Below, in pieces: positions 13,762 to 29,209 of a DNA stretch of 64,000 bases. The notes under the pieces are model-generated. The model was not told the origin of the DNA. It worked only from the letters and a program-made list of their open reading frames with translations, and did not search any database. A program made the position numbers and the translations under genes. The stretch is from positions 1-64,000 of the forward strand of contig JAQUHA010000014.1 of assembly GCA_028683855.1 (NCBI GenBank), written 5' to 3'. Each line of letters begins with the position of its first letter. The stretch's first letter is position 1. The DNA is from Desulfuromonadaceae bacterium (GTDB lineage: Bacteria > Desulfobacterota > Desulfuromonadia > Geobacterales > Pseudopelobacteraceae).

Positions 13762-15852
13762 ATGCGCAAATACCTCATTTTCTTTTTATTAGCCATAATA
13801 TCCTCTATTTCTGTTTTTTCCGTTGAGCTTGCATCAATCCCCTTTATTAATAATGTAGATCTTAAAATGAAAGACCTCCGTTTTTTGTTGCGTGGTCAGA
13901 TAAAACCTCCAGATTCTGTCGTGGTTGTTGCTATAGACAACAAAAGCGTTAAAGAGATCGGTCGCTGGCCATGGTCACGTGAATATATTGGTAGACTTAT
14001 AAGCGGTATGGCTGAATACGGTGTTAAAGTTACCGCTCTTGACGTGGTTTTCTCTGAAAAACAGAATCCTGTGTCAGACAGCTCTCTTGCCGATAGTATT
14101 GCGCTTTCAGGAAATGTAATAGCCGGATATTTTTTTAGAAATGAAGTGCAGCCTGTTGATTATGAAAGTCTTGAACAGATTCAAACATCAAAAATTCAGA
14201 AACTCCAGATTGACTCAGGTGTTACATCCGTACCTCTTATTGAGTATGAAAATCTGGATGCGAACATTGCCTCAATTACTCAATCTGCTTTAGGGTTTGG
14301 TTTCTTTAACGTAATATCCGACTCAGACGGTCTGTTTCGAAGAGCGCCTTTACTAATGCTTTACGATGGAGATATATACCCGTCAATCGTTTTACAAGCA
14401 TTGGAGCGGTATACTGAAAACAGTGCAGCTATTACTATCGGCAAAACCGGTGTGCGCTCAATAGAGCTTGGAAAATATATAATTCCAGCCAGTCATGAAG
14501 GGACTCTACCGGTTAATTATTATGGACCTACAGCTAGTATAAAGACATATTCCGCCGTTGACATAATTAAGAGGCGTCTTCCCGTAAATGAATTGAAGGA
14601 TAAACTGGCATTTGTCGGTTTTACTGAGATCGGAATATATGATGTGCGCCCGACCCCTTTTGATCCTATACTTCCAGGGGTTGAAATTCATGCCAGTATT
14701 GCCGCAAATACCCTTGAACAGAATTTTATCATACACAATAACAAAACCATTCTTGCTGAACGGATTCTGTTGTTTAGTTTGCCGATCCTGCTTGCTCTCC
14801 TGCTTGCCTTTGCTCCGAGTGCCTCGTTCGGCTTTCTAACTGCCGGGGCTTTTTCTCTCCTCTATCTTGTCTGCAACTATTTTATTTTAACCATTTACAA
14901 GCTCGATCTATCTATTTTCTCTCCTTTAATGGCTCTGGGACTCTCTACTGTAAGCTCCGAAATTTATCGTAGTCTTGTTGTTGACCGCAAAGGTCGTTAC
15001 ATGAAGAAGGCTTTCAGTAATTATGTTTCAGCAGATCTTGTCGCACAGATTATGAAAAATCCGGAGAGTCTTAAGCTTGGTGGTGAAAAAAGAGAGATAA
15101 GTATTCTTTTTTCCGATATCAGAGGGTTTACCTCTATATCGGAAAAGCTCTCACCTGAAGAGCTGGTATGTTTGCTGAATGAGTATCTAAACCCTATGAC
15201 TCTTATCGTTCTTGAAGAAAAAGGCACTCTTGACAAGTATATTGGCGATGCTGTTATGGCAATATTTAATGCGCCGCTTGATGTAGATGGTCACGCTGAT
15301 CATGCCTGTCGTGCAGCGTTAAAGATGATGGCTAAGCTTGCGGAACTCAATAAATCTTTTCTTGAAAGAGGTATGCATACAATTGATATAGGTATTGGAA
15401 TAAATACAGGAGATGCAGTAGTTGGAAATATGGGCGCTGCCATGAGGTTTGATTATACTGCTATTGGAGATAATGTTAATCTTGCATCCCGATTAGAAGG
15501 GCTGAATAAAATGTATGGTACTCATATCATCGTTAGTGAAGCAACTAGGTTGCTGGCTGGAGATGATATGTTATTCCGTGAAATTGACCTTGTTGCTGTA
15601 AAGGGTAAACAGCTGCCCATTCCAATTTATGAGCTTATGATTTTACATGATGCTGAACTGATGAGTCACTTTTCCCATGCACTGAACCTGTACAGGGAGA
15701 GTAAATTTGAGGCTGCACTTAAAATTTTTGATGACCTGAGTGTAACAAAGCAGGATTATATTTCTGGTTTGTATATTCAGCGCTGTATTGATTTCATTGC
15801 AACTCCGCCACCTGAAAACTGGGATGGTGTTTTCGTGGCAAAAACAAAATGA
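13762..15852 (+). CDS. CHASE2-domain adenylate/guanylate cyclase
   Basis: This 696-residue protein has an N-terminal transmembrane helix, a large extracytoplasmic CHASE2 sensor domain (about residues 25-320, with VVVVAIDNKSVKEIGRWPW), three membrane helices near 330-410 and a class III nucleotidyl cyclase domain (about 440-625). Catalytic motifs are intact: ILFSDIRGFTSISEKLSPEE with its metal Asp, KYIGDAVMAIF, GIGINTGDAVVGNMG and DNVNLASRLEG. It should sense an envelope signal and make cAMP or cGMP. The next gene encodes a FecR protein; CHASE2 cyclases and FecR proteins often sit together. It lies at the head of the fibre locus and may regulate it. Confidence 0.93.
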   Translation: MRKYLIFFLLAIISSISVFSVELASIPFINNVDLKMKDLRFLLRGQIKPPDSVVVVAIDNKSVKEIGRWPWSREYIGRLISGMAEYGVKVTALDVVFSEKQNPVSDSSLADSIALSGNVIAGYFFRNEVQPVDYESLEQIQTSKIQKLQIDSGVTSVPLIEYENLDANIASITQSALGFGFFNVISDSDGLFRRAPLLMLYDGDIYPSIVLQALERYTENSAAITIGKTGVRSIELGKYIIPASHEGTLPVNYYGPTASIKTYSAVDIIKRRLPVNELKDKLAFVGFTEIGIYDVRPTPFDPILPGVEIHASIAANTLEQNFIIHNNKTILAERILLFSLPILLALLLAFAPSASFGFLTAGAFSLLYLVCNYFILTIYKLDLSIFSPLMALGLSTVSSEIYRSLVVDRKGRYMKKAFSNYVSADLVAQIMKNPESLKLGGEKREISILFSDIRGFTSISEKLSPEELVCLLNEYLNPMTLIVLEEKGTLDKYIGDAVMAIFNAPLDVDGHADHACRAALKMMAKLAELNKSFLERGMHTIDIGIGINTGDAVVGNMGAAMRFDYTAIGDNVNLASRLEGLNKMYGTHIIVSEATRLLAGDDMLFREIDLVAVKGKQLPIPIYELMILHDAELMSHFSHALNLYRESKFEAALKIFDDLSVTKQDYISGLYIQRCIDFIATPPPENWDGVFVAKTK

Positions 15853-15886
15853 TACGCTTGATGACCACAGCGAATAGGAAAATAAT

Positions 15887-15914
15887 TTGACATGAGAATG
15901 ATAACAAGTATAAA
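15887..15914 (+). promoter_or_regulatory. Predicted sigma70 promoter of the FecR-domain gene
   Basis: A perfect TTGACA (15887-15892) and TATAAA (15909-15914) with a 16-bp spacer lie in the gap after the cyclase gene. It would give a leader of about 90 nt to the GTG start at 16012, so the FecR gene can be expressed apart from the cyclase gene. Confidence 0.6.
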
Positions 15915-16011
15915 AGTTTAGAATATAATAAAGTTGTAACATCACTTGAATAAGTTCAGTTTTGTTATAAAACTGTATTTTATTATGATCCTGATCGAAA
16001 GGGAGGTGCTT

Positions 16012-17070
16012 GTGCTTAGAATACTACTTTTTTTAATTACAGTAACGCTTCTGTCTTCAACGCAGTCGGCTTTTTCAGCAACGGTTGGATCTGTAAAGAA
16101 GTTCAGTGGTGAAGTTTATTTCAGAGATAAAGACAATACCCCCTACTTACCAATAAAAGCCGCAATTGAACTGTCACCTGGGAGTTGGATTAAAACAGGT
16201 AAAAACGGTTGGATTGAGCTTGATCTTGTTGATAAAAGCAGATTCACTATAGCCAATAATTCTGAACTGGAACTAGTGAAATTTGATTTTAACAAAACAA
16301 CAAGGGATGGGCTTTTCACTCTCACTCATGGAAAGTTGAAAGCTTCGGTTTCTAAGACAAAAGGGCTGACATCATCTCTTAAAGTAAAAAATAAAGGTGT
16401 TGTGGCGGGTGTAAAAGGTACGGAGTTTTTGATGTTGTCTGAGGGACCGGCAAACGTCTTTTTTGGAAATGAAGGTAAAGTTTCAATAAGTGGTAATGAT
16501 GAAAAAGAGAAATTTCTTTTGTCGCAAAACATGACTCAGACTACAAGAGGGTACACACCTATCGACCCGGTATCGGTAGAACCAAATACTCCCATTGCGG
16601 AAGCAAAAGCCGCATTTGACTCGGCTACGAGTTCAATTCCTCCCGAAGATTGGTCTGTTGCAGATAATCTACCAAATATTATCGCCAGATGGAATATAAC
16701 TTATGGACACTATCTTGCTGATACCGGAAAATACGAGCAGGCATTACAGGTTTTTCAGATAGCGCTTGATCTTAGCAATATCTCCGATATACGTTGTGAC
16801 GCAAGATTGGAGCGTAGTGCAGTATACTCTCGCTTTTTAAGTAATCTGGAGGCGGCTCTTGCCGAAAATCTACTTATACTTGAGGAGTATCCGACCTCAT
16901 TACAGTCCGAGTCCGCGCTTTTCAATACGGGTCAGATACTTTTTGACCTTTCATTGAACGAACAGTCAAAGAAGAGATTCAAGGAGTATCTGGATAAATA
17001 TCCGGAGGGTAAACATAGAAATAATGTTGATACATTACTGGGAATTTTAAATAAACCAGATAACCAGTAG
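16012..17070 (+). CDS. Secreted FecR-domain protein with C-terminal TPR-like repeats
   Basis: GTG 16012 is chosen because GGGAGG lies 5 nt upstream and a clean signal peptide follows (LRILLFLITVTLLSSTQSAFSA); an in-frame TTG at 15946 lacks both. The 352-residue product has a FecR-like domain (about residues 25-165; ELSPGSWIKTGKNGWIELDL, GVVAGVKGTEFLM), then TPR-like helices (YLADTGKYEQALQVFQIAL; YPTSLQSESALFNTGQI). There is no sigma-factor gene beside it, so a classical FecI/FecR role is unlikely; it may be an envelope sensor or scaffold working with the CHASE2 cyclase. An AT-rich gap separates it from the repeat-protein gene. Confidence 0.85.
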   Translation: MLRILLFLITVTLLSSTQSAFSATVGSVKKFSGEVYFRDKDNTPYLPIKAAIELSPGSWIKTGKNGWIELDLVDKSRFTIANNSELELVKFDFNKTTRDGLFTLTHGKLKASVSKTKGLTSSLKVKNKGVVAGVKGTEFLMLSEGPANVFFGNEGKVSISGNDEKEKFLLSQNMTQTTRGYTPIDPVSVEPNTPIAEAKAAFDSATSSIPPEDWSVADNLPNIIARWNITYGHYLADTGKYEQALQVFQIALDLSNISDIRCDARLERSAVYSRFLSNLEAALAENLLILEEYPTSLQSESALFNTGQILFDLSLNEQSKKRFKEYLDKYPEGKHRNNVDTLLGILNKPDNQ

Positions 17071-17221
17071 TTTTCGAAAAATAGGAAACTATAGCCAAAT
17101 ACTCTGTCCGCATTTTGATTTTTTAAATATAACGCATTTGTTGTGTATAGGATGTTACTGCGAGTAATTATTTCTTATTATTAAATTCAAAAGAAATTAA
17201 ATATGATTATCGAGTTTTTTA

Positions 17222-17248
17222 TTGAAAATATTTTTCAAATAGTATTAT
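17222..17248 (+). promoter_or_regulatory. Possible promoter of the repeat-protein gene
   Basis: TTGAAA (17222-17227) and TATTAT (17243-17248), spacer 15 bp (or TTATAT at 17245-17250, spacer 17), lie in a very AT-rich stretch. A short inverted repeat TTGAAAA..TTTTCAA overlaps the -35. The leader to ATG 17297 would be about 40 nt. Confidence 0.35.
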
Positions 17249-17296
17249 ATGAAAAAAAGTGTAGTTAAATTGTTTCAAATATCAAAGGGGGAAAAA

Positions 17297-18118
17297 ATGA
17301 AAAAAATAGTATTTATGGCAGCAGGGTTGTTGTTAGCGCAGTCGGCAGTTTCTTTTGCAGCTTCCGATGTAAGGGGAGCGGTAGTAAATCAGTCAAACAA
17401 TCAAGGATCAGCAAACGTTGCAATTGGTGCTGATAACAACGCAAATCTCGGTTCAACCAGCATTGGAAATTCTTCGGTACGTGGAGCTGTGGTTAATCAA
17501 TCCCAAAATCAAGGATCAGCAAACGTAGCAATTGGTGTAGGCAATACAGCTAATCTCGGTTCAACAAGCATACAAAACTCAGATGTTCGTGGAGCTGTTG
17601 TAAATCAGACAGAGAATCAAGGTTCAGCAAACGTCGCCATTGGTGTTGGTAATACTGCAAATCTTGGCTCGACCAGTATTGGTGGTTCATCTGTTCGCGG
17701 AGCGGTAGTTAATCAGTCACTTAATCAGGGAGCTGCAAACGTAGCTATTGGTGTTGGTAACACCGCAAATCTTGGATCTACAAACATTCAGAACTCGGAT
17801 GTTCGTGGAGCAGTCGTTAATCAGTCAGATAACCGAGGTGCAGCAAACGTTGCAATTGGCGTAGGTAATAAGGCAAATCTTGGCTCTACAAACATTGAAA
17901 ATTCAAATGTTCGTGGAGCGGTTGTTAATCAGTCACAGAATCAGGGTTCGGCAAACGTTGCAATTGGTGTAGGTAACAAGGCAAATTTAGGTTCTGTTGA
18001 TATACAGAATTCTAACGTCCGTGGTGCCATTGTAAACCAGTCAAACAATCAGGGTGCAGCAAACGTTGCAATTGGCGCAGGCAATGAAGCCAATATGGGA
18101 TCAATAGTTGTAAAATAG
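17297..18118 (+). CDS. Secreted curlin-like repeat protein: seven 36-residue repeats
   Basis: ATG 17297 follows AAAGGGGG and starts a 22-residue signal peptide (ending VSFAA). All of the remaining 251 residues are seven near-identical 36-residue units, each reading roughly S-x-VRGAVVNQS-x-NQGSANVAIG then VGNTANLGSTSI. Each unit splits into two 18-residue halves with regularly spaced Asn, Gln, Gly and Val/Ile and no Cys, Pro or aromatic residue in the repeats. This is the pattern of a beta-solenoid or curli subunit (curlin repeats are also short, with spaced Gln/Asn). DNA repeats of about 108 bp have diverged at wobble positions, showing selection on protein. A strong terminator follows, and the downstream genes encode a CsgG-like channel, so it is the likely major fibre subunit. 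No family name is certain. Confidence 0.85.
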   Translation: MKKIVFMAAGLLLAQSAVSFAASDVRGAVVNQSNNQGSANVAIGADNNANLGSTSIGNSSVRGAVVNQSQNQGSANVAIGVGNTANLGSTSIQNSDVRGAVVNQTENQGSANVAIGVGNTANLGSTSIGGSSVRGAVVNQSLNQGAANVAIGVGNTANLGSTNIQNSDVRGAVVNQSDNRGAANVAIGVGNKANLGSTNIENSNVRGAVVNQSQNQGSANVAIGVGNKANLGSVDIQNSNVRGAIVNQSNNQGAANVAIGAGNEANMGSIVVK

Positions 18119-18132
18119 ATTTATGCTTCTTT

Positions 18133-18182
18133 CTCTCTACAACATACTAACTACTTATTAGTATGTTGTAGAGAGTTTTTTA
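18133..18182 (+). terminator. Strong intrinsic terminator after the repeat-protein gene
   Basis: CTCTCTACAACATACTA (18133-18149) pairs perfectly with 18159-18175 over a 9-nt loop and is followed by TTTTTT. It sits between the predicted fibre subunit and the export genes, so the subunit can be made in excess of them. Partial read-through or a separate promoter would be needed for the next genes. Confidence 0.9.
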
Positions 18183-18210
18183 TAATTAACCGGCTGTATT
18201 GGAGGTAATA

Positions 18211-18558
18211 ATGAAAAAATATGGTTTTTTTTCATTTCTAGTTATCTGTCTGTTTTTAATTAGTGCGTCGGTATTTGCTTCAGACCTTGATGATGGAATA
18301 TCAAAGTCGTTGGACGAATCAATTTCAAAGGATGATGAGCTAGGACAGAAAGACAGGAATATAAGTTTTATAAAATTAAAAGCTAAAAGCGATGCTGCTG
18401 TTCGATCTAAAAAAGGTACTGATCAGGGTAGTGCGGCAGGAAATACTCCTGCAACTGGAAATATGAATAGTGTAGTGCTTGGACCTGGTGGCAATGTTCG
18501 TGGAGATATTATAATTATTGATCAGAGTCGCGGAGATAAAACGCAGGTTGTTGAGTGA
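18211..18558 (+). CDS. Small secreted protein with one C-terminal repeat-like motif (candidate minor subunit)
   Basis: ATG 18211 follows GGAGG (18200-18204). The 115-residue product has a signal peptide (FLVICLFLISASVFA), a charged middle and a C-terminal segment GGNVRGDIIIIDQSRGDKTQ. This echoes the VRGAVVNQS-x-NQG motif of the preceding repeat protein (VRG + hydrophobic strand + Q-S). It may therefore be a minor, capping or nucleating subunit, as CsgB is to CsgA; that is inference from one motif and position. No other family is recognised. Confidence 0.7.
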   Translation: MKKYGFFSFLVICLFLISASVFASDLDDGISKSLDESISKDDELGQKDRNISFIKLKAKSDAAVRSKKGTDQGSAAGNTPATGNMNSVVLGPGGNVRGDIIIIDQSRGDKTQVVE

Positions 18559-18634
18559 AAACTGGTCAAAAAGTTTTGAGTTGGCATCAAGTATAACCGG
18601 AAAGCTTGTCTACTGAAACATAATCGAGGGAAAT

Positions 18635-20233
18635 ATGAAAAAAAACAACTCACAATCATATTCAAGTGCAATTAGACTCTGCGGAGCTATTCTTCTATCA
18701 TCAATGTTTCTTTATGGTTGTGCTTCCGTGGATCCTGCCAAAGTGGATGTGGCGCTTCCGGAAACAGCGCCAGTCACTAAGATTACTAATTATTCACAGT
18801 CATTGAGAAATCTCGGTTTGATGACTGAAATTTATGATACCGGTACTCTGAAAATTCAGAGCAATCCAATTGGTGATAACACCGGAACTTCAAATGCTAC
18901 TGGTGGCGAGATTCCAAAAGATATTACAGAAATGATTAAAAGCGCACTGAATTCTATTGGTGGTGGAGTAATTTTTATTCCATATGATCCCGCTTTTATT
19001 CAAAATCAGATGGTTACAGGTTATTCTAATTTTGATAATAAGTTGATACCTGATGTGGTCGTATCGGGTGGGATAACTGAATTTGATAGAGGCTTGGAAA
19101 CTCGTGGCTCTGGAACTGATGTTGGAGGAGAGGGCGAGATTGCAGCCATGCCAGCTGGTTTTCCTTCCAAAAAAGTAGGTTTTGATTATTCTGACTCCAA
19201 TAAGACCGGAGTTGCAAGAATTACACTTGATTTTAATCTGCTTGACTTTAAAACTATGGCGGGCATAGCCCGTATGAATACCACTAATAGTATGGAAGTT
19301 ACCAAGGCGTTGAGCGAGAAGGAGTTCGGAATTACTCTTTTTGGACCTACATTTGGTCGCAAAGGTTCTATTAAGCGTGTTCAGGGTAGGCACAATGCTG
19401 TTCGTCTTCTTGTTGAAGTTAGCATGATTCAGGTGGTCGGTAAAAATCTGGTATTACCTTATTGGCGTTTAATTGGAGATGACACCTTGCCGGATGATGT
19501 TGTCTTAAGCTCTCTGAAGAAAAGTTACTATCGTATGACAGAGCTTCAGAGAAATCACAATTCTCAGCAATGGTTGTATCTTCACGGTTATGACCTGATA
19601 CCTACCGGTGTTATTGATGAGCCTACTGTAGCAGCTTTGAAAAAATTTAAACCTACATATGTACAACAGGGTAAAACAGTCGATATAGATACATTCGTTG
19701 ATCTTTATTTCAGTATACCAATTGATGAAAAAACTCTGGGTCGCCGTATGGCTTTGACTAATTTAATGCAGGCTCAGGCGAATTCCTCACAACCGCCTGC
19801 TGCCACAGCCAATGCTGCACCTGTTGAAGTCGAAGCAAATGAGTATAAAAACCTGACTAAAGAAGAGAGGCAGACCAAAAGTCTCGAATTAATTATTGAG
19901 GCTGGTCGCTATTTCAGACAACGTAATTATGGCAAGGCATCGGGACTGTTTGCGGAAAACTTAAAAGTTCTTCCGTCACCGGAAACTTTCTTTTATCTTA
20001 GCCTCTGTTATCAGGAGATGAAAGACACCGACAATGCTCTAAAGACTCTAAAAGATGGATCTAAGAAGTTTGCAACAGATCCGCTGCTCTTGAGGTCACT
20101 AGGTCTTCTTTCATACGAAAGGGGAGATGTTGCAACCGCAACTCAAGCATTGAACGAAGTTATTAGACTTTCACCTGATGACAGGCAGGCGAAGTTTTTA
20201 CTTGAACGAATTGAAAACTCCAAGAAGATGTGA
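18635..20233 (+). CDS. CsgG-like outer-membrane lipoprotein with peptidoglycan-binding-like and TPR regions
   Basis: This 532-residue protein has a lipoprotein signal with lipobox LYGC (Cys29) followed by Ala, favouring outer-membrane sorting. Residues about 45-310 resemble CsgG/HfaB: IPDVVVSGGITEFDRGLETR, then a long strand-rich region GVARITLDFNLLDFKTM and RLLVEVSMIQVVGKN. CsgG forms a nonameric export pore for curli subunits. Next comes a short peptidoglycan-binding-like segment (LYLHGYDLIPTGVIDEPTVAALKKF) and a TPR-like C-terminus (about 415-530). The fused cell-wall and TPR parts are absent from E. coli CsgG. Position just after the two repeat-motif proteins points to their export. Confidence 0.8.
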   Translation: MKKNNSQSYSSAIRLCGAILLSSMFLYGCASVDPAKVDVALPETAPVTKITNYSQSLRNLGLMTEIYDTGTLKIQSNPIGDNTGTSNATGGEIPKDITEMIKSALNSIGGGVIFIPYDPAFIQNQMVTGYSNFDNKLIPDVVVSGGITEFDRGLETRGSGTDVGGEGEIAAMPAGFPSKKVGFDYSDSNKTGVARITLDFNLLDFKTMAGIARMNTTNSMEVTKALSEKEFGITLFGPTFGRKGSIKRVQGRHNAVRLLVEVSMIQVVGKNLVLPYWRLIGDDTLPDDVVLSSLKKSYYRMTELQRNHNSQQWLYLHGYDLIPTGVIDEPTVAALKKFKPTYVQQGKTVDIDTFVDLYFSIPIDEKTLGRRMALTNLMQAQANSSQPPAATANAAPVEVEANEYKNLTKEERQTKSLELIIEAGRYFRQRNYGKASGLFAENLKVLPSPETFFYLSLCYQEMKDTDNALKTLKDGSKKFATDPLLLRSLGLLSYERGDVATATQALNEVIRLSPDDRQAKFLLERIENSKKM

Positions 20234-20286
20234 AGCATTTTTTAAATCGTATCAATAAATCTGCGGGTTAAGAGGGGGATTTCAAT

Positions 20287-20580
20287 ATGGACAAATCAGG
20301 TTATAAAGAAAAACTCCTTTACATTGCTTTTGGTGCTGTTATTGCCGCAACATCTTTTATCTTACTTGCAGCTACAGATGTTAGTGCTCCTAATTATGGT
20401 CGTTATCAGATATCGTCATGGAGCAGTCCAACCGGTAAGGACTCAGTAGCAGTCGGGGCTTTTGTTCTTGATACTGCCACAGGAGAGACAAAGGTTGTAT
20501 ATCATAAGACCATCAGCGCTGCCGAAACGGGACTGCATGGCAAAGATAATCTTCGTAAGCAATTTTATACAATTAAGTAG
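20287..20580 (+). CDS. Small exported or membrane-anchored protein, unknown function
   Basis: A 97-residue protein with an N-terminal hydrophobic segment (LLYIAFGAVIAATSFILLAA) and a short soluble part containing NYGRYQISSW and GAFVLDTATGETKVVY. The 'GRYQ ... DTATGE.K' pattern recurs, as I recall, in small proteins of related bacteria, but I know no function. AGAGGGGG lies just before ATG 20287. It lies between the CsgG-like gene and the protease gene, so an accessory role in the same system is possible. Confidence 0.65.
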   Translation: MDKSGYKEKLLYIAFGAVIAATSFILLAATDVSAPNYGRYQISSWSSPTGKDSVAVGAFVLDTATGETKVVYHKTISAAETGLHGKDNLRKQFYTIK

Positions 20581-20632
20581 ATATGCTGATAATACCGAAT
20601 ACAATTATTATACAATGGCATATATAAGTTTA

Positions 20633-22159
20633 ATGATTAAGTCTTATGTGAATACTGTAATACCGGGTCTTTTGGGCTCGGTATTTCTTTTTTGTTTTCT
20701 TGTGATGCCGACTTCAGTGTATGCAGATGAGATTAAATTTGAAACAGCACGTTCAATAGTTAAAATATATGTAGTAAAAAATCAGTATAATTATCATGAA
20801 CCATGGCAGAAAATAGGTGTCCGACAGTACCAGGGTTCTGGAAGCATTATTTCAGGTAAACGAATTCTTACGAGTGCTCATGTCGTAAGTGATCAGACCT
20901 TTATTCAGGTTCGCCGCTCTGGAATTGCTAAAAAATATACTGCAAATGTAGAGTCGATAGAGAAGGCTAGTGATTTAGCCATATTAAGCGTTGATGATCC
21001 AGATTTTTTTGACGGGAGTGTTCCTCTTGAAATAGGTACTTTGCCATTTGTGAGAGATAAGGTTGCTGTGTATGGGTATCCTGATGGTGGAGATACTTTA
21101 AGTATTACTGAGGGTGTTGTCTCACGTATTGAACATCAGGAATATATTTACAGTAATACAAATTTGTTGGCGTGTCAGATAGATGCACCTATAAACTCTG
21201 GAAACAGTGGTGGTCCTGCCATAGTAAATAAAAAATTAGTCGGTGTTGTTTTTCAGGGGTTGTACGGTCCTACAACTGAGAACATTGGTTACATGGTTCC
21301 AACTCCGGTCATTCTACATTTTTTGAATGATATATCAGATAATACTCTGGATGGTATACCCGAGCTTGGCATATCAATGCAGAAGATGGAAAACCCCAGT
21401 TTACGCAAAAAATTTGGTATTTCAGGGAAAAAAACCGGAGTTTTGGTTAACAAAATATATCCAGAGTCTCCTGCAAAAGGATTGTTACTGCCAAACGATG
21501 TAATTATAGCAATTGATGGTGAATTAGTTGAAAATGACGGAACGATACTTTTTCGCCAGGAGGAGCGTACTTTTTTAGGTTATCTATGGCAAAAAAAACA
21601 AATTGGCGAATCTATCTCAGTAACTGTCTTGCGAGGAGATAAAAATATTGTTATTGAAATAATCCTTTCAAAATCAATTGGTTTTGAAAGATTGGTGCCT
21701 CATAAACAGTATGATATAGCACCTTCATACTATATCGTAGGTGGACTTGTTTTTGCACCTTTAACACGTAATTATCTTGAAGAGTATGGAACTGAACAGA
21801 ATTGGGCTTTACAAGCACCTAAAGAGCTGCTCTCATATTATCTGAATGGTGAACCTACAACTGATCACCGAGAAATTTTACTGCTTATAAATGTTCTGGC
21901 AGATGATATTAATATTGGTTATCATGCTTTCACAAATGGCATAATCAACAGGGTAAATGGTCATGATGTGGCAACACTTGAAGATCTCGTTGAAGCATTT
22001 GAAACAAATAAAGAAGAATTTCATACTATAGAAGATGTGCATGGATATCGAATTGTTCTTGATCGAATAAAATCAGTGGATCGCAATAAAACTATCTTAA
22101 AGCGTTATCTTGTTCCGGCAGGCCGCTCCAAGGATTTGGTGGAAAGACAATTTAATTAA
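20633..22159 (+). CDS. HtrA/Deg-like secreted serine protease with PDZ domains
   Basis: The start is uncertain: ATG 20633 gives a clean signal peptide (ending SVYA) and ATG 20615 adds six residues; neither has a good Shine-Dalgarno. The trypsin-like domain has the full triad: His in ILTSAHVVSD, Asp in KASDLAILS and Ser in INSGNSGGPAIV. One PDZ domain follows (GVLVNKIYPESPAKGLLLPNDVIIAIDG) and a second, weaker PDZ-like region lies near the C-terminus (NGIINRVNGHDVATLEDLVEAF), similar in layout to plant Deg9-like proteases. It should act in the periplasm, perhaps as quality control for fibre subunits or assembly factors. Confidence 0.88.
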   Translation: MIKSYVNTVIPGLLGSVFLFCFLVMPTSVYADEIKFETARSIVKIYVVKNQYNYHEPWQKIGVRQYQGSGSIISGKRILTSAHVVSDQTFIQVRRSGIAKKYTANVESIEKASDLAILSVDDPDFFDGSVPLEIGTLPFVRDKVAVYGYPDGGDTLSITEGVVSRIEHQEYIYSNTNLLACQIDAPINSGNSGGPAIVNKKLVGVVFQGLYGPTTENIGYMVPTPVILHFLNDISDNTLDGIPELGISMQKMENPSLRKKFGISGKKTGVLVNKIYPESPAKGLLLPNDVIIAIDGELVENDGTILFRQEERTFLGYLWQKKQIGESISVTVLRGDKNIVIEIILSKSIGFERLVPHKQYDIAPSYYIVGGLVFAPLTRNYLEEYGTEQNWALQAPKELLSYYLNGEPTTDHREILLLINVLADDINIGYHAFTNGIINRVNGHDVATLEDLVEAFETNKEEFHTIEDVHGYRIVLDRIKSVDRNKTILKRYLVPAGRSKDLVERQFN

Positions 22160-22194
22160 CTTCATACTAACTGGAAACGAAAGGTGGGTGTCAA

Positions 22195-22824
22195 ATGAAA
22201 AAGAAGATATTATTTGCTGTCTCATGTTTATTATTAGCGCAATCCTTTGGATGCTCGAATGTGCCTGTTGTACCTGAGCGCCCATATAAGGTTGGTGTCA
22301 CAGGCTTTCAGCAATGTAGTCCTCAATTGACTCTTAAAGAAATCGGATATTTGGAAATTCCGATCAGGAATGAGGCAAATGATTGTACCAGAAGGGGTAT
22401 GCCGGTAATATTTGCTGCTGAGCTTGCTAAAAACATTAAGGATAAAATTAGTAAAGAAGTTGTTATTGTTCCTCTTGACGTGCCTTATAATTATAACATT
22501 CGGTCACAGATAGACATAGCAAAGACAATGGATGTAGATTACCTGATTGGTGGAAAGATTGATAAATATGTGGATCCTTCCGCTCCTCAACGAGCTAAAT
22601 ATTCAGGTATACTGCCTAATACCGCAACCCTCTCACCAACACCATCGAAAATAGCTGACGATGAATCTACAGATTTGGTAATCGACCTCAAGTTAGCTCG
22701 TGTTCTGGATGGAAAGATTATTTCGGAATATAAAGATGAGTTTATCGGAAAAAGGAGTGGTTACGAATATACAAAGGAACTGGCAGAAAAAATAGCTGAA
22801 GAAATTATTGATAATAACAAATAA
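22195..22824 (+). CDS. Probable lipoprotein with CsgG/TolB-like domain
   Basis: A 209-residue protein with an N-terminal signal ending SFGC (Cys20, a non-canonical lipobox). The mature part contains VGVTGF, then IFAAELAKNIKDKI, VDYLIGGKIDKYV and a C-terminal VIDLKLARVLDGKII. This order matches the periplasmic nucleotide-fold-like domain shared by CsgG and related lipoproteins, without a transmembrane-barrel hairpin. It is the fourth gene after the CsgG-like lipoprotein in the same direction. It could be an accessory of the export pore. The domain call is tentative. Confidence 0.6.
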   Translation: MKKKILFAVSCLLLAQSFGCSNVPVVPERPYKVGVTGFQQCSPQLTLKEIGYLEIPIRNEANDCTRRGMPVIFAAELAKNIKDKISKEVVIVPLDVPYNYNIRSQIDIAKTMDVDYLIGGKIDKYVDPSAPQRAKYSGILPNTATLSPTPSKIADDESTDLVIDLKLARVLDGKIISEYKDEFIGKRSGYEYTKELAEKIAEEIIDNNK

Positions 22825-22883
22825 TACAGGACAGCCTGAAGCGTCTTAGCAGGTTTCTGGTTTATGAACACTCTCAATCAGTC

Positions 22884-22940
22884 AAAAAAAATAATCTGTT
22901 TAGTGCTGTTGCAAGGTGCACTAAACAGATTATTTTCTTC
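22884..22940. terminator. Bidirectional intrinsic terminator
   Basis: A perfect 19-bp stem (22888-22906 with 22918-22936) and 11-nt loop lies between two convergent genes. It has an A-run on the left and a T-rich right flank, so it can stop transcription from both sides. Confidence 0.92.
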
Positions 22941-22961
22941 GTTCAGGATTTAAAACAAATT

Positions 22962-23933
22962 CTATTTAAGTACAAATGCCACCTGAGCTTTAGCAATGAA
23001 TCCTGTGGACTGGTTTGCCGCATATATCTTTGCGGCATCTGCGTCGCTCACTTTTAGATCAGACTTGCTTTGTATTCCCGATGCCTTAAGAACGAGTGGG
23101 TTTGAAACTCCACGAGTGCCTAAAGCAGCCTTTGCTTTGTCGATATTATTAGTATATTCACCGCACCCCTGCTCAATTAAAACCTTTTGGCTGATTTTAG
23201 CCGGATCGTATAGAACTTCACCCGCCATAGAAAATATTCGGTTAATAAGAGCTGGTTGGAAGTTCTCTTCTGTTGCATCAACAATCAGACCATCATAAGG
23301 AGCTGCGTTGACCACCTCTTTCTGTTTAGTGGTTGGATCTGCTTTAGGAGTCTCAGCTGTTGCTACAGGTGCCGGTTTGGTTGGTGTCGGTTCTACAGGT
23401 GGAGGTACATATACAGGTTGATTGAGTTCTTTTTTAATTGTCGGTTCATCAAGAATCTTCTCATACATTGTAGCAGAAATGCTTCGTGGTCCCTTTGTGC
23501 CTATTTTCATTACTACAAGGGCGGTCTCTTCTGCTTCATTCCATTCCTGTACAACAATATGTGCGCCTTTCACTAACCCTGTAACCGCACTTTTAATTGT
23601 GTCAGAAACCAGCTCGGAGTCCTGCACGGTTGTTTCACTGACTATTGCGACTCCGGAAATCATCTCGGCAAGATGACGTTGAGCAACAACTTTTGCTGCG
23701 GTTAGTGCGGTCAAGCGTTTCTGTCCCTTTACAGATCCTTTCTTTGGTGAACCTTCACCTACAACAATAATGTAGTCTTTGGTAAATACCTCTTCAACGC
23801 TGGTACTTACCTCTTCATTATTGTCACGAAGATACTTTTGAGCTGTCTTAAACCTGTCGTCAACTTCTCCGGCAAAAGTTAAAGTTGAAAAAATCAATAG
23901 CATTAAAACTGTAACTAAAAACTTGATTTTCAT
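22962..23933 (-). CDS. Secreted LPP20-like protein, paralogue A
   Basis: A 323-residue protein with signal peptide ending LTFAG. Residues about 75-160 resemble the LPP20 lipoprotein domain (AAKVVAQRHLAEMISGVAIVSETTV, VVQEWNEAEETALVVMKIG), but no lipobox Cys is present. A Pro/Thr-rich linker of about 45 residues (PPPVEPTPTKPAPVATAE) leads to a C-terminal domain (YDGLIVDATEENFQPALINRIF, YDPAKISQKVLIEQGCGEY). That C-terminal part is almost the same as in the divergent gene at 24126. The function is not known. RBS GGGGGG precedes the start. Confidence 0.75.
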   Translation of the reverse strand: MKIKFLVTVLMLLIFSTLTFAGEVDDRFKTAQKYLRDNNEEVSTSVEEVFTKDYIIVVGEGSPKKGSVKGQKRLTALTAAKVVAQRHLAEMISGVAIVSETTVQDSELVSDTIKSAVTGLVKGAHIVVQEWNEAEETALVVMKIGTKGPRSISATMYEKILDEPTIKKELNQPVYVPPPVEPTPTKPAPVATAETPKADPTTKQKEVVNAAPYDGLIVDATEENFQPALINRIFSMAGEVLYDPAKISQKVLIEQGCGEYTNNIDKAKAALGTRGVSNPLVLKASGIQSKSDLKVSDADAAKIYAANQSTGFIAKAQVAFVLK

Positions 23934-24125
23934 TTTACCCCCCCTATTTTTGTGTGATTCAAAAAAACTATTTTCTGCTAACCAGTTGAATAATTTTTAT
24001 CAAAACATTCGTATATAATCAAGCTAATTGTGGATATTATGATATTAACGGATTGCTCAAATAGTAAATATGTTTTATTGTAAAAAAGTTAAGTTCATCA
24101 ATAACAAATAGAGGAGGGGTTGAAG

Positions 24126-25049
24126 ATGAAAACCATTATAGTTACGGCGTTTCTTTCCTTGATGTTTACTATACCTGCTTTTGCTGAAAGGATTAATATT
24201 GACCTTGCTTTCACCAAAACTAATAATTACCTCAACAATAATAATCTTGCCCTTACCGCGGGGGCTGGCGGTGAAACTGATGACACATCTGCCTATAATC
24301 AGGGTGTGCTTCTTTTTTATGGACAAGCTGCCGGTAATCCAAAACACTCAAATCCAAAACGAGCACTGGCTGCAAAACGAGCCGCTGTTGTTATAGCTCA
24401 GCGGGCAGCTTTGGAATATCTGGAAAATGTTCTGGTGGTCGGAGTGACCAATGTTAAAGACTGTATGGTACAGGATGATGTAGTTGTTTCCACAGTCTCT
24501 GGTATGGTTAGAGGTAGTCAGGTTGTTGTTCAGGAATATAATAAAGAAACTGATACCGCTATTGCAGTTATCAAGCTCGGAATGAGGGGGCCAAATGGTT
24601 TTGCCTCTTCGTTTTATGAAAAAATATCTAAAGATCAGAAGTTCAGGGATAGTGTAAACATAGACAAGAAACAATTCCAACCTTCTGAACAGATGGTTAT
24701 GCCCGATGTTGCGTATGATGGTCTTATAATCGATGCAACAGAGCAGAGCTTTAGACCGGCACTTATAAATAGAATCTTTGCTGCCAAAGGGGAAGTTCTC
24801 TACGATCCTGCTAAAATCAGTCAAAAAGTTCTTGTGGAGCAGGGGTGTGGTGAATATAGCAATAGTATTGAGAAAGCAAGAGCTGCACTCTCTGTCAGGG
24901 GGGTGACTAACCCGTTGGTGATTAAAGCCTCTGGGGCGATAAACAGCTCGGATCTTCAGGTGAGTGATGAAGTTGCAGTAACTGTATATTCGGCAAATCA
25001 AAAAGGTGGTTTCATGGCATCGGCTAAGGTGGCTTTTGTATTGAGATAA
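24126..25049 (+). CDS. Secreted LPP20-like protein, paralogue B
   Basis: ATG 24126 is chosen over TTG 24120 because GAGGAGGGG ends at 24119. The 307-residue product has a signal peptide (ending PAFAE), an LPP20-like domain (AAKRAAVVIAQRAALEYLENVLVVGVT) and a C-terminal domain beginning YDGLIIDATEQSFRPALINRIFAA. It aligns along most of its length with the divergent gene at 22962-23933 but lacks its Pro-rich linker. The two genes face away from a shared 192-bp AT-rich region and probably arose by duplication and inversion. The transglutaminase gene follows 21 bp downstream. Confidence 0.75.
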   Translation: MKTIIVTAFLSLMFTIPAFAERINIDLAFTKTNNYLNNNNLALTAGAGGETDDTSAYNQGVLLFYGQAAGNPKHSNPKRALAAKRAAVVIAQRAALEYLENVLVVGVTNVKDCMVQDDVVVSTVSGMVRGSQVVVQEYNKETDTAIAVIKLGMRGPNGFASSFYEKISKDQKFRDSVNIDKKQFQPSEQMVMPDVAYDGLIIDATEQSFRPALINRIFAAKGEVLYDPAKISQKVLVEQGCGEYSNSIEKARAALSVRGVTNPLVIKASGAINSSDLQVSDEVAVTVYSANQKGGFMASAKVAFVLR

Positions 25050-25070
25050 ATAGTAAATTCGAGGTTTGTT

Positions 25071-26765
25071 ATGGTACAGCTCAATATTCTTATTATCGTT
25101 ATCTCAATAATTACCTGTTGCACCTCAGTTTGGGGTAAAACATTGGTTGTTGAGGGTAAGCTTGACGGAACAGTTACCGTTAAAAAAGATGTTACTTTCT
25201 CTGCCGATGAACCTATTCGTCAGTTTACTTACCAATTTTCACTCCCTTCCAGTTACGATAATGCCGGAAATATTCAAAGTCTTGATGATTTTCAGGCTTC
25301 TGCAATACCTCAGCCTGATGAATCAAAAGAGACGACGGACGAATATGGAAATCGCTCTCGCAAAATGATTTGGAAACAACTTGAGGGAGATGCAAGGATT
25401 TCCATTAAATATACAACATCCATTACGGCAAATATTTCCCCCAAAACCAGTAATTCTGCTTATCCGTTAAGTGCTGTTCCAGTAGGGGAACAGAAGTTTT
25501 TAAAAAAGAGTAAACTTGTTCAGAGTGATGACAGAAAAATTATTGAACTGGCTGAATCACTTACCTCTGGTGCAGTTACAGAGCATCAGGCGATAATTGC
25601 AATTCTGACCTACGTTGCAGATGCTATTAAGTATAAATATAATCCGCAACAGTATGATGCTCTATACGGACTTACAACTGGTACAGGGAATTGTCAGAAT
25701 TTTTCTCATCTGGCGGTAGCGCTTTTGCGAGCATCCGGAATACCGGCAAGAATATCAATAGGTCAGGCTCTTAAAGATAAATGGAAAATCCCATTGGAAA
25801 AGAAAGGTTCGTCACTTGTTCAGGGAATAGGTGAAGGGTTGCACGCCTGGATTGAGGTGTGGTACCCGGATTTGGGGTGGTTACCATGTGACCCTCAACA
25901 GTCACGACTTTTTACTTCTACCCGTCATATCAAGTTCGGGCATGGTTTGGATGCTTCTGATGTTCTTGAATATTGGAGTGCAGTACCTACTCTGCCACGT
26001 ATGAATGAGAGTTTAGAGGCGACCTACTCTACGGATAAAGTAAATCTTACTTTGCGGGATACCTTTGATCAGCCCGCCAGCTATCTGCTTGCCGGTTTAG
26101 TGACGTCTAAAGTTGTTGTGCCAGATAAAATAAAAGATAAACAGGCTGAGCCAAAGCTGACAACTCCAGCTAAAAAAGATAAGCCTTTGCCGCTTATAAT
26201 TAAGCCTCCTCCTGTAAAGCATCAGTTTGGGATGTCGGTCGAAATAGGTAATATCGAATTTCCTTCGTTGGTTGAGACTTTCAAGGTTGACGGTAATATC
26301 GGACAGCGAAGCTTTGATCGTGAAACTGCCGAATACGCAACATCAAAATATCTTTTCGCACAGGCTTTCACTCTTGAAGAGCCTATTATGGTTAAAGATA
26401 TTGCACTGGCTATGCGCAAGTTTGGCGGTGATGGTACGGTATACATTGATGTTGTAAAGGATGAAGAGGGGAAACCTAGTCTTGACGGGTTGCGCTCTAT
26501 GCCGGTACCTCTGGAAAAGATAACACGCAGGCCCGGTTACTATTGGGTGGATTTCTCTTTGCCAGAGAAAACAATTATGCCTCCAGGTAAGTATTGGCTT
26601 GTATTGCGTCACTCCGGCGAGGCGATCATGAACTGGTTTTACACACCGGGTAAACGTGTTGGCGGACCTGATGACAGCAGGTCTACAGCTAAAGGGTGGC
26701 AGTGGGAGGATATACTCTCAGGAGAGTTTGTTTACAGGGTGCGGGGAGTCGTGAGTAAGCTTTAG
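25071..26765 (+). CDS. Secreted transglutaminase-like (protease-fold) protein
   Basis: A 564-residue protein with a signal peptide and a transglutaminase core (about residues 170-285). The Cys-His-Asp triad is visible: TGTGNCQNFSHLAVALLRASG, GLHAWIEVWYPDLGW and LPCDPQQ. A Pro/Lys-rich linker (about 350-385) precedes a C-terminal beta-rich domain with PGYYWVDFSLP and GKYWLVLRHSG. Such domains either crosslink Gln and Lys side chains or cleave peptides. The fibre repeat protein is rich in Gln but has almost no Lys in its repeats, so direct fibre crosslinking is possible but unproven. The gene is followed by a terminator and ends the locus. Confidence 0.88.
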   Translation: MVQLNILIIVISIITCCTSVWGKTLVVEGKLDGTVTVKKDVTFSADEPIRQFTYQFSLPSSYDNAGNIQSLDDFQASAIPQPDESKETTDEYGNRSRKMIWKQLEGDARISIKYTTSITANISPKTSNSAYPLSAVPVGEQKFLKKSKLVQSDDRKIIELAESLTSGAVTEHQAIIAILTYVADAIKYKYNPQQYDALYGLTTGTGNCQNFSHLAVALLRASGIPARISIGQALKDKWKIPLEKKGSSLVQGIGEGLHAWIEVWYPDLGWLPCDPQQSRLFTSTRHIKFGHGLDASDVLEYWSAVPTLPRMNESLEATYSTDKVNLTLRDTFDQPASYLLAGLVTSKVVVPDKIKDKQAEPKLTTPAKKDKPLPLIIKPPPVKHQFGMSVEIGNIEFPSLVETFKVDGNIGQRSFDRETAEYATSKYLFAQAFTLEEPIMVKDIALAMRKFGGDGTVYIDVVKDEEGKPSLDGLRSMPVPLEKITRRPGYYWVDFSLPEKTIMPPGKYWLVLRHSGEAIMNWFYTPGKRVGGPDDSRSTAKGWQWEDILSGEFVYRVRGVVSKL

Positions 26766-26770
26766 ACATT

Positions 26771-26804
26771 AAAAGAGGTGTCTGAAGTCAGACACCTCTT
26801 TTTT
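26771..26804 (+). terminator. Intrinsic terminator after the transglutaminase gene
   Basis: AAAAGAGGTGTCTGA (26771-26785) pairs with 26788-26802 and is followed by further Ts. The symmetric A and T runs also let it end transcripts from the opposite strand, after tRNA-Asp. Confidence 0.9.
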
Positions 26805-26807
26805 AAA

Positions 26808-26884
26808 TGGCGGGGTTGACGGGGCTCGAACCCGCGACTTCCAGCGTGACAGGCTGGCACTCTAACCAGCTGAGCTACAACCCC
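26808..26884 (-). tRNA. tRNA-Asp (anticodon GTC)
   Basis: The reverse strand folds as a 77-nt tRNA: acceptor stem GGGGTTG/CAACCCC, D-loop AGCTCAGCTGGTTAGAGT, anticodon stem CCAGC-CTGTCAC-GCTGG giving GTC at positions 34-36, T-arm GCGGGTTCGAGCCCCGT, and an encoded 3' CCA (26808-26810 read in reverse). It lies between the transglutaminase terminator and nrdJ. Confidence 0.97.
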
Positions 26885-26968
26885 AATATCGACAGTTCAG
26901 TTAATCCGAAGATATATCTCATATAACGATAGCTTTTGTCAATATACTTGTACATTTTTTTGAAGAAA

Positions 26969-29209
26969 TTAAGCACATTCTGAATAACCACATACATGAC
27001 ATACAGAACAACCACCTTCGTGTTCAACTATCCCGCCACACTCAGGGCACGCACCGCGTTCCTGAGTTGCAATTTCAGCTTCAATCTCATAGCCATGATC
27101 CAGCATATGATTCTGTATTGCTTTCGCAACGGCATCAGCACATGATGTTACCCGATTATCGCCAAAACCGGATGGGCAGTGGCATGAAATACCGAGCAAC
27201 TGTTTTATGACCTGTCGAGCCTGAATGCCGCTACGCCATGCCAGTGATACCATACGCCCGATTGCCTCGCTTTGTGAAGCAGCGCACCCACCGGCTTTCC
27301 CCATTGTTGTGAAAAGTTCAAATAAGCCATTTTTATCTTCGTTAATTGTTATATAAAGTGGGCCGCAGCCGGTTTGCATCTGGTGAGTACAACCTTTTAA
27401 CGCTTTTGGCCGCTCACGCTTTACAGCTTTTTTATCCTCTGTCGCAGGTGTGACTGCCACAGCTGCAGTCTGTTCTTCTTTTTTGCCGGTAGACAGCACC
27501 TGCTCATCTCTTGAGCCGTCACGGTAAATTGTAACACCCTTACAGCCGGTTTCGTATGCCAGCATATAAACCTTTTCAACGTCTTCAATTGTTGCAGAGT
27601 GTGAGAAGTTGACTGTTTTAGAAACTGCATTGTCTGTATAGAGCTGAAAGGCTGACTGCATCTGTATGTGATACTCAGGGGCAATTTCGTGTGATGTGAC
27701 AAAGACCGACCTTACATCAGCCGGTATTTCAGTAATATCCTGTACGGTTCCATGTTCAGCAATTTTCTTCATAAGTTCAGCGGAGTAGAAACCGCGTTCT
27801 TTTGCTATCTTCTCAAAAATCGGATTAACCTCAACCAGAACATTCTTATCCATTACTGTACGTATGTACGACACAGCAAAGAGAGGTTCAACACCGGAAG
27901 ATGCGTTTGCTATAATTGAGATTGTTCCTGTTGGAGCTATTGTAGTTACTGTTGCATTCCTTTGTGGTGCTGAACCCTTTTTATCAAAGATAGAACCGGT
28001 GAAATTGGCAAATGAACCCCGTTTTCTACCCAGTTCCTGAGATGCAAGATGCCCTTCATCATTTATGAATTTCATGACTTTTTTGCCAAGTTTTACCGCT
28101 TCGTCGGAACCGTAAGAAATTCCCATAAGAATAAGCATATCTGCCCATCCCATTACCCCTAGTCCTATTTTGCGATTCGCGTGAGTCATGTCATGAATCT
28201 GCTGTAGTGGATAGTTGTTTGCTTCAATTACATTATCAAGAAAGTGTACGGCGTTATGAACGGTCTCTTTCAATCTTTTCCAGTCAACAGTACCTTCTTT
28301 GACAAAATTGCCTAAATTGATAGAACCTAGATTGCATGACTCATACGGAAGGAGTGGTTGTTCGCCACATGGATTTGTTGATTCAATTTCGCCTATTAGC
28401 GGAGTTGGATTGTCCCTGTTCAAGCGGTCTAAAAACACTATTCCAGGTTCACCGTTTTCCCAGGCCTGTTTGACAATCCTTTGAAATACCTTGCGCGCAT
28501 TCAGCGTGCCAAGAACCTTTTTGTCGCGTGGATTTATAAGGCTGTACTCTTCATCACGTTCAACTGCCTGCATGAACTTTTCTGTCAATCCAACTGAAAT
28601 ATTGAAATTATTCAGCTGTTTTTGATCAGCTTTACACATTATAAAATCCATAATATTAGGATGATCGACGCGCAGAATTGCCATGTTTGCGCCACGTCTT
28701 GTGCCACCCTGTTTAATTGTTTCAGTTGCAACGTCAAAAACCCGCATAAACGAAAGTGGACCGCTCGAAATGCCTGTCGTTGTACTGACAACATCATTTG
28801 CCGGTCTCAGACGTGAAAATGAGAATCCTGTGCCTCCTCCAGATTTATGAATAAGAGCGGTAAATTTAACTGCATCAAAAATCTCTTCCATAGAATCACC
28901 AACAGGGAGAACAAAACAGGCTGAAAGCTGTCCAAGCGGCCGGCCGGCGTTCATAAGTGTTGGTGAATTCGGGAGAAACTCAAATTTTGTCATCATGTTG
29001 TAAAAAGTGTCTGCTACACTCTCTACGTCGGCTTTTTTTTCAAATTTTTTATCAACGGCTGCAATGGTGTCTGCAACTCTCCGAAACATATCGGCAGGTG
29101 TTTCAAGTGTTTTACCCGCTTCATCCCGTCGGAGATAGCGTTTTTCGAGAACAGTCCTTGCATTTTTAGTAAGGCCGGGAATGTCATCTGTCAGTAGATT
29201 TTTTTTCAT
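26969..29209 (-). CDS. nrdJ: Adenosylcobalamin-dependent (class II) ribonucleotide reductase
   Basis: This 746-residue class II ribonucleotide reductase makes deoxyribonucleotides with a B12-derived thiyl radical, needing neither oxygen nor a second subunit. Visible motifs include LMNAGRPLGQLSACFVLPV, STNPCGEQPLLPYESCNLGS with catalytic cysteine region, TIAPTGTISIIANASSGVEP, and a C-terminal Cys-rich tail CPECGG-x-CSVCHVCGY that recycles the active-site disulfide or binds zinc. Length is normal. Two NrdR-type boxes lie on its promoter. AAGGAG precedes the ATG at 29209. Oxygen independence suits a mainly anaerobic lifestyle. Confidence 0.95.
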   Translation of the reverse strand: MKKNLLTDDIPGLTKNARTVLEKRYLRRDEAGKTLETPADMFRRVADTIAAVDKKFEKKADVESVADTFYNMMTKFEFLPNSPTLMNAGRPLGQLSACFVLPVGDSMEEIFDAVKFTALIHKSGGGTGFSFSRLRPANDVVSTTTGISSGPLSFMRVFDVATETIKQGGTRRGANMAILRVDHPNIMDFIMCKADQKQLNNFNISVGLTEKFMQAVERDEEYSLINPRDKKVLGTLNARKVFQRIVKQAWENGEPGIVFLDRLNRDNPTPLIGEIESTNPCGEQPLLPYESCNLGSINLGNFVKEGTVDWKRLKETVHNAVHFLDNVIEANNYPLQQIHDMTHANRKIGLGVMGWADMLILMGISYGSDEAVKLGKKVMKFINDEGHLASQELGRKRGSFANFTGSIFDKKGSAPQRNATVTTIAPTGTISIIANASSGVEPLFAVSYIRTVMDKNVLVEVNPIFEKIAKERGFYSAELMKKIAEHGTVQDITEIPADVRSVFVTSHEIAPEYHIQMQSAFQLYTDNAVSKTVNFSHSATIEDVEKVYMLAYETGCKGVTIYRDGSRDEQVLSTGKKEEQTAAVAVTPATEDKKAVKRERPKALKGCTHQMQTGCGPLYITINEDKNGLFELFTTMGKAGGCAASQSEAIGRMVSLAWRSGIQARQVIKQLLGISCHCPSGFGDNRVTSCADAVAKAIQNHMLDHGYEIEAEIATQERGACPECGGIVEHEGGCSVCHVCGYSECA

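Follow-up and report, generated by a model that had tools for sequence, protein, structure and literature searches.

What does a CsgG-like outer-membrane lipoprotein export when the secreted protein encoded next to it is not a curlin but an uninterrupted array of 36-residue repeats? This question is raised by a locus within the first 64,000 nucleotides of contig JAQUHA010000014.1 from a Desulfuromonadaceae bacterium (hereafter, the window, meaning this whole stretch), which a sequence-only reading had interpreted as a candidate curli-like fiber export system. Operon conservation and the predicted folds support CsgG-type export with an unusual repeat subunit; the product may be a fiber, possibly of amyloid nature and assembled by the nucleation-precipitation-like route first proposed, and the locus may represent an undescribed relative of the curli-building machines. 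The reading that we favor, at a probability of roughly 0.6, is that of a widespread, patchily distributed secretion-assembly system built on a CsgG-fold lipoprotein, with exported solenoid subunits stacking at the cell surface.

Conserved Gene Order and Patchy Distribution of the Locus

The locus begins with three genes on the + strand, which encode a secreted repeat protein, the proposed fiber subunit (17297-18118), a small secreted protein that we denote DLDDGI (18211-18558), and a CsgG-like outer-membrane lipoprotein with a TPR C-terminus, the proposed export pore (18635-20233). Four CsgG-like proteins were aligned, and a profile that did not include the repeat protein was used to scan one genome per species across 84,980 species. 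The scan required one of two peptide patterns, so members with neither pattern were missed, and 26 of the 138 pattern matches were confirmed. Three of the resulting 26 loci (L017, L036, and L040) are cut at a contig end; in all 23 uncut loci, the repeat gene or genes are followed by the small DLDDGI gene and then by the CsgG-like gene. The order is kept in 21 of 21 new loci, a count that excludes L016 and L033, two loci that had themselves contributed proteins to the profile. Because the profile was built from neighbors of the repeat gene, this result holds for the present CsgG-like subfamily rather than for CsgG-like proteins generally. Across 28 distinct loci (29 rows, with L014 and L033 on the same contig), the repeat gene is present in all 25 that are uncut and the small gene in 26, the remaining two (L017 and L040) being cut at the contig end.

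An order-level search recovered the repeat protein in 5 of 141 genomes, one of which (G126) was dropped as a false match, a pentapeptide-repeat protein located beside genes resembling type VI secretion; in the four true carriers, the window's own genome included, the small and CsgG-like genes follow. The neighborhood comparison across Geobacterales thus upheld the linkage but not the notion of a specialty of this order, in which the system is rare and beyond which it is found. Judged by record titles, the carriers comprise Geomonas, Desulfobacterales, Desulfuromonadaceae, Nitrospirae, Candidatus Scalindua, Sulfurospirillaceae, and Methylotuvimicrobium. Most loci come from records labeled as metagenome bins, L016, L038, and L039 being among the exceptions, so some host labels may be wrong. 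With weak or partial matches counted, a 25-member profile (A6) matched 9 of 394 genomes in the phylum of the window; the figures were 15 of 151 for the family to which L039 belongs and 3 of 198 for the phylum to which L026 belongs. Of the eight matches in the window's phylum besides the window itself, L053 and L056 carry a repeat gene of the 36-residue type just upstream, and L055 has two upstream repeat genes of another pattern. In L054, the repeat gene belongs to the same gene run but sits ~3.5 kb downstream; L042, cut at the contig end, coincides in its coordinates with L017; and L057-L059 are the three weakest matches. In the tree, the window and Geomonas are grouped with full support, and L033, another Geobacteraceae bin, stands apart, paired with a Desulfobacteraceae bin; 8 of the 22 inner branches are open. 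The patchy spread suggests transfer of the locus between lineages.

The Repeat Protein Is a Predicted Parallel β-Solenoid

The likely start of the repeat protein is at 17297, which yields a signal peptide followed directly by seven repeats of 36 residues. The mature protein (251 residues) contains no Cys, Pro, His, Phe, Trp, or Tyr, and its self-identity at lag 36 is 0.81, compared with a maximum of 0.24 over 1000 shuffles; among lags 5 to 119, the top three are 36, 72, and 108, the latter two nearly as high as the first, and the next, lag 51, reaches 0.19. Tandem Repeats Finder resolves the gene into 6.5 copies of a 108-base unit. The sequence-only reading had described precisely such a protein, made of seven 36-residue repeats and devoid of Cys, Pro, and aromatic residues. 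The 36-residue register is common to the 13 repeat proteins that were aligned, in which the repeats likewise start directly behind the signal peptide; the repeats are divergent in L027, L029, and L035. The best AlphaFold2 model (predicted local distance difference test [pLDDT], 91.5) is a parallel β-solenoid with one coil per repeat, which agrees with the solenoid envisaged earlier and places the protein, at the level of a predicted structure, among the parallel β-solenoids. The model matches the fold of the β-helices of autotransporter passengers, but the repeat protein differs from these in having no translocator barrel on the same chain and in consisting purely of 36-residue tandem repeats.

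When the window's own genome was searched with the repeat protein, the sole match was the repeat protein itself, and short peptide patterns derived from it brought up no relative among 61 pattern matches in genome contigs or two in viral contigs. Membership in the pentapeptide repeats was rejected, given that there is no five-residue period and that the weak matches to pentapeptide models and structures were read as compositional; the many unrelated Pfam families that the repeat proteins matched were likewise put down to composition noise.

Variants of the repeat protein were observed as well. Giant repeat proteins of 656 to 972 residues, which a loose count credits with 15 to 24 repeats, are encoded upstream of the short subunit gene in five loci (L022:3236-6154, L023:6101-8155, L026:5939-8137, L030:6579-8549, and L041:5910-8180). 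In the methanotroph genomes G537-G539 (loci L037, L038, and L039), two-repeat versions of the subunit are matched 10, 11, and 6 times. At L055:7300-9100 (+), two repeat proteins adjoining the CsgG-like gene display a GGNNNxANAxSI pattern that appears more curlin-like, by eye only.

The Lipoprotein Likely Adopts a CsgG Fold

By sequence, the lipoprotein is a marginal match to CsgG: it scored 20.3 bits against the Pfam CsgG model, 0.5 bits under the cut-off of 20.8, and 21.6 bits, above the cut-off, in the genome search, and 3 of 25 members of the CsgG-like family reached this model at E 0.01. Cys29, the presumed lipobox Cys, is conserved in all 25 members. An hhalign comparison with Escherichia coli CsgG was colinear over 183 columns (E 0.0016, probability 16%), and a PDB profile search with the CsgG-like alignment retrieved no CsgG. 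The structure model of the lipoprotein is of middling quality (pLDDT 76.1, predicted template modeling [TM] score 0.54). With this model, Foldseek returned CsgG structures (6l7c, E 3.8e-5; 6l7a, 4.8e-5; and many 4uv2 chains), in alignments with a root-mean-square deviation of 10.6 to 15.9 and a target TM score of 0.44 to 0.47; no secretion pore other than CsgG appears in the 50 matches listed, the remainder being TPR or similar helical proteins. Nearly all of the 50 matches listed by VIA-align were TPR matches to the tail of the model. We regard a CsgG fold as likely and membership in CsgG at the sequence level as unproven; the Foldseek match supports the CsgG-like character given to this lipoprotein earlier. 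Because a predicted solenoid, a predicted CsgG-like fold, and the linkage were all found, the outcomes set beforehand as speaking against the proposal, namely, predicted structures with no solenoid or pore fold and a repeat gene never near a CsgG-like gene, did not occur.

The domain composition of the family varies, with TPR, peptidoglycan (PG)-binding, or DUF4384 parts on some pore proteins; of the 25 lipoproteins, 4 match PG_binding_1. The CsgG-like gene of L041 is split across two frames. The window's own genome (G000) contains three further Pfam CsgG matches, on contigs C19, C6, and C33 (L008-L010), all stronger than that of this locus. At L057-L059, distant CsgG-like proteins are encoded beside other small or repeat-rich secreted proteins, possibly representing more CsgG substrate families.

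A Stem-Loop and a Small Secreted Protein between Subunit and Pore Genes

The subunit gene is separated from the other genes of the operon by a stem-loop of 18 pairs followed by six T (18133-18175, + strand), the longest terminator-like stem found within 15500-27000; the sequence-only reading had missed both this element and the conserved c6 gene described below. The intergenic stretch behind the repeat gene of the window folds with a z of -5.2, and in 19 of 25 loci the RNA 3' of the repeat gene (intergenic, ≤120 nt) folds at z -3 or less relative to dinucleotide shuffles. With fixed 90-nt segments, strong folding was seen behind the repeat gene in 17 of 25 cases, behind the small and CsgG-like genes in 0 of 25 each, and behind the LPP20-type gene in 4 of 18, a contrast that is indicative, as the control segments often enter coding sequence and several of the loci are closely related to one another. 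The stems differ among lineages by eye, such that place and shape are kept rather than sequence. The T-run is not a general feature: in 10 of 25 loci, a simple scan detected no terminator, and in several others it gave nothing above shuffles. The arrangement matches a need for more subunit than pore, possibly through attenuation or through protection of the 3' end, and we propose the element as an attenuator or 3' stabilizer.

The small DLDDGI protein, whose gene adjoins the CsgG-like gene, is proposed from the locus comparison to be a pore partner, nucleator, or anchor. Comparison of 24 members with Pfam revealed no convincing family (best E 0.023). A motif related to the repeats had been read into this protein; the protein itself is present, but the motif scores -1.4 bits against the repeat-unit profile, inside the shuffled range, and the idea that the C-terminus copies a unit was rejected. 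Across the 24 small proteins, this profile reached at best 4.0 bits, compared with 9.7 bits for the best shuffled sequence (837 scored, 960 made).

Recurrent Partners

Other gene families recur around this core. The counts over the 28 distinct loci, which are lower bounds because contig ends cut loci, are at least 19 for LPP20-type proteins, 16 for DUF2807, 15 for c5, 13 for c6, 7 for c8, and 5 each for HtrA and OmpA-type proteins; the window itself encodes two LPP20-type proteins, c6, and HtrA. In L054, the small, CsgG-like, c5, LPP20, DUF2807, HtrA, and repeat genes form a single run. No convincing domain match was obtained for c5, c6, or c8. The c6 protein of the window (20287-20580, + strand; alignment A9) belongs to a conserved family of ~100 residues with one N-terminal hydrophobic segment by eye. 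It was considered as a CsgF and rejected, having only weak scores (Pfam CsgF weakly in 4 of 14 members, best E 0.13); hhalign comparisons of c6, and of the small DLDDGI protein, with E. coli CsgF were at chance level.

Downstream of c6 lies the gene for a secreted HtrA-type protease with a C-terminal PDZ_3 domain (20612-22159, + strand, start approximate), correctly recognized before: it matches the trypsin and PDZ families of Pfam and contains the motifs holding His, Asp, and Ser, which we take to be the catalytic triad. This family is found in 5 of the 28 distinct loci, the window counted, and additionally in L053 and L054. The next gene (22195-22824, + strand) encodes a small lipoprotein common to two Geomonas-type loci, which had been taken for a second CsgG/TolB-like protein; it has no Pfam match at E 1, nor at 0.1, which leaves the CsgG assignment unsupported. 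The two LPP20-related secreted proteins, a divergent copy on the opposite strand (22962-23933, - strand) and a second one (24120-25049, + strand), have no direct Pfam match. The profile of these two proteins and two Geomonas-type relatives picked up proteins at 16 related loci, with E values of 3.5e-8 to 7.5e-12, and 13 of the 16 aligned LPP20-type proteins match Pfam LPP20.

Comparison with Known Export Systems

The locus resembles curli in that the outer-membrane lipoprotein has a CsgG-like fold, at the level of the model and marginally by sequence, the secreted subunit consists of glycine/asparagine-rich β-repeats, and the gene for a small secreted partner adjoins the pore gene. The two also differ. 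A 36-residue coil replaces the curlin repeat: Pfam curlin (PF07012) was found in 0 of 17 carrier genomes, and hhalign gave 0.3% for the repeat protein and E. coli CsgA. Likewise, none of the 17 carrier genomes yielded Pfam CsgE or Pfam CsgF, as foreseen by the sequence-only reading; the E. coli control was positive for all three families. CsgA carries an N-terminal targeting stretch, whereas the 13 aligned repeat proteins have none between signal peptide and repeats. Finally, the additional domains on some of the pore proteins set them apart from the curli pore.

In the Fap amyloid of Pseudomonas, the repeats are likewise Asn/Gly-rich and similar in length, and export has its own outer-membrane protein, FapF, which belongs to a different barrel family. 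We liken Fap to this locus, and set it apart, by description rather than by sequence; the Pfam and NCBIfam matches of the window proteins include no Fap name, and no search aimed at Fap was made. FapF is described as the transporter of FapC in PMC5137466. The HfaABD system of Caulobacter combines, according to the excerpts of PMC6707917, a CsgG-like protein, a curlin-similar protein, and a surface protein, and retains polysaccharide, so that the likeness lies in a CsgG-like protein with surface proteins holding material at the outer membrane. Among the literature matches listed, no other described case in which a CsgG-like protein serves non-curli surface proteins comes closer. By contrast, the lipoprotein falls short of the NCBIfam HfaB model (15.0 bits, cut-off 300), and HfaA and HfaD are likened by description alone. 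None of the matches listed from the open-licence PubMed Central literature, preprints aside, describes the present system, and the excerpts of a methanotroph S-layer paper (PMC13274458) and of a functional amyloid review (PMC12520557) make no mention of such a system.

Proposed Assembly Route and Alternatives

From the computed operon conservation, repeat register, stem-loop, and predicted folds, we infer the following route. The repeat protein would cross the inner membrane by means of its signal peptide, pass unfolded through the CsgG-like pore, and fold outside into a parallel β-solenoid with flat, near-identical ends; such solenoids could then stack end to end into a surface fiber or matrix filament. 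The small DLDDGI protein might be bound to the pore as a nucleator, gate, or anchor, the stem-loop behind the subunit gene would provide for far more subunit than pore, and the HtrA, LPP20-type, c5, c6, and DUF2807 proteins may assist in the periplasm or at the surface, in sets that differ among lineages. We suggest more tentatively, at somewhat less than even odds, that the loci constitute a separate class of CsgG-type fiber machines in several phyla, with an unrelated 36-residue solenoid subunit and a pore partner of their own, and without CsgE, CsgF, or curlin; the subunit of this putative class would range from 2 to ~24 coils, with several lineages pairing a short and a giant form in one operon.

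Two observations qualify the linkage of repeat gene and pore gene: repeat genes also sit far from the pore gene in carrier genomes, including most of the methanotroph copies, and the three weakest and most distant CsgG-like loci (L057-L059) have no 36-residue repeat. The solenoid might also be exported by the CsgG-like pore and stay monomeric, acting as a surface adhesin or matrix protein. Autotransporter passengers, whose fold it matches, are single surface solenoids, and the complete giants encoded in five loci would be able to act alone; two-coil subunits in several paralogous copies, and a stem-loop favoring subunit over pore, suit a polymer better, and we regard the monomer as unlikely. 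By analogy with HfaABD and its retained polysaccharide (PMC6707917, excerpts), the locus could instead anchor an exported polysaccharide, which the repeat protein would tether at the surface. The HfaB model does register on the lipoprotein, but far under its cut-off, and on this comparison, made with no search for polysaccharide genes nearby, such an anchor appears improbable. Still harder to credit is a periplasmic envelope-stress or cell-wall module, composed of HtrA, TPR, PG-binding, and LPP20 parts, in which the repeat protein is not exported: HtrA and TPR are indeed present, and the PG_binding_1 domains and the OmpA-type partners would fit, but HtrA accompanies only 5 of the 28 distinct loci, compared with a repeat gene in every uncut one, and the lipoprotein model matches the CsgG pore.

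If the stacking of exported solenoids is borne out, CsgG-fold pores export a second, unrelated class of self-stacking repeats beyond the curlins, in environmental lineages that include Geomonas, anammox bins, Nitrospirota, and methanotrophs. A simple, regular solenoid with its length set by the number of repeats would be of interest for engineered protein fibers, and the nature of the substrate cue for a CsgG-type pore that operates without an N-terminal targeting stretch would become a testable question in cultured methanotrophs.

Genomic Context of the Locus in the Window

The flanking genes encode a FecR/TPR protein (15946-17070, + strand; Pfam FecR, 45.5 bits), a transglutaminase-like protein (25071-26765, + strand; Pfam, 89.7 bits), and a CHASE2 cyclase (Pfam CHASE2, 185.9 bits; cyclase, 88.7 bits). 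All three had been correctly noticed, but they are not recurring parts of the system: no counterpart was identified near the other 27 loci compared. In 2-kb bins, the G+C content from 14001 to 26000 is 0.38 to 0.41, compared with 0.41 to 0.54 in the other bins of the window, and a tRNA-Asp gene (26808-26884, - strand) lies at the end of the locus. This G+C-poor locus ending beside a tRNA-Asp gene might be a transferred island.

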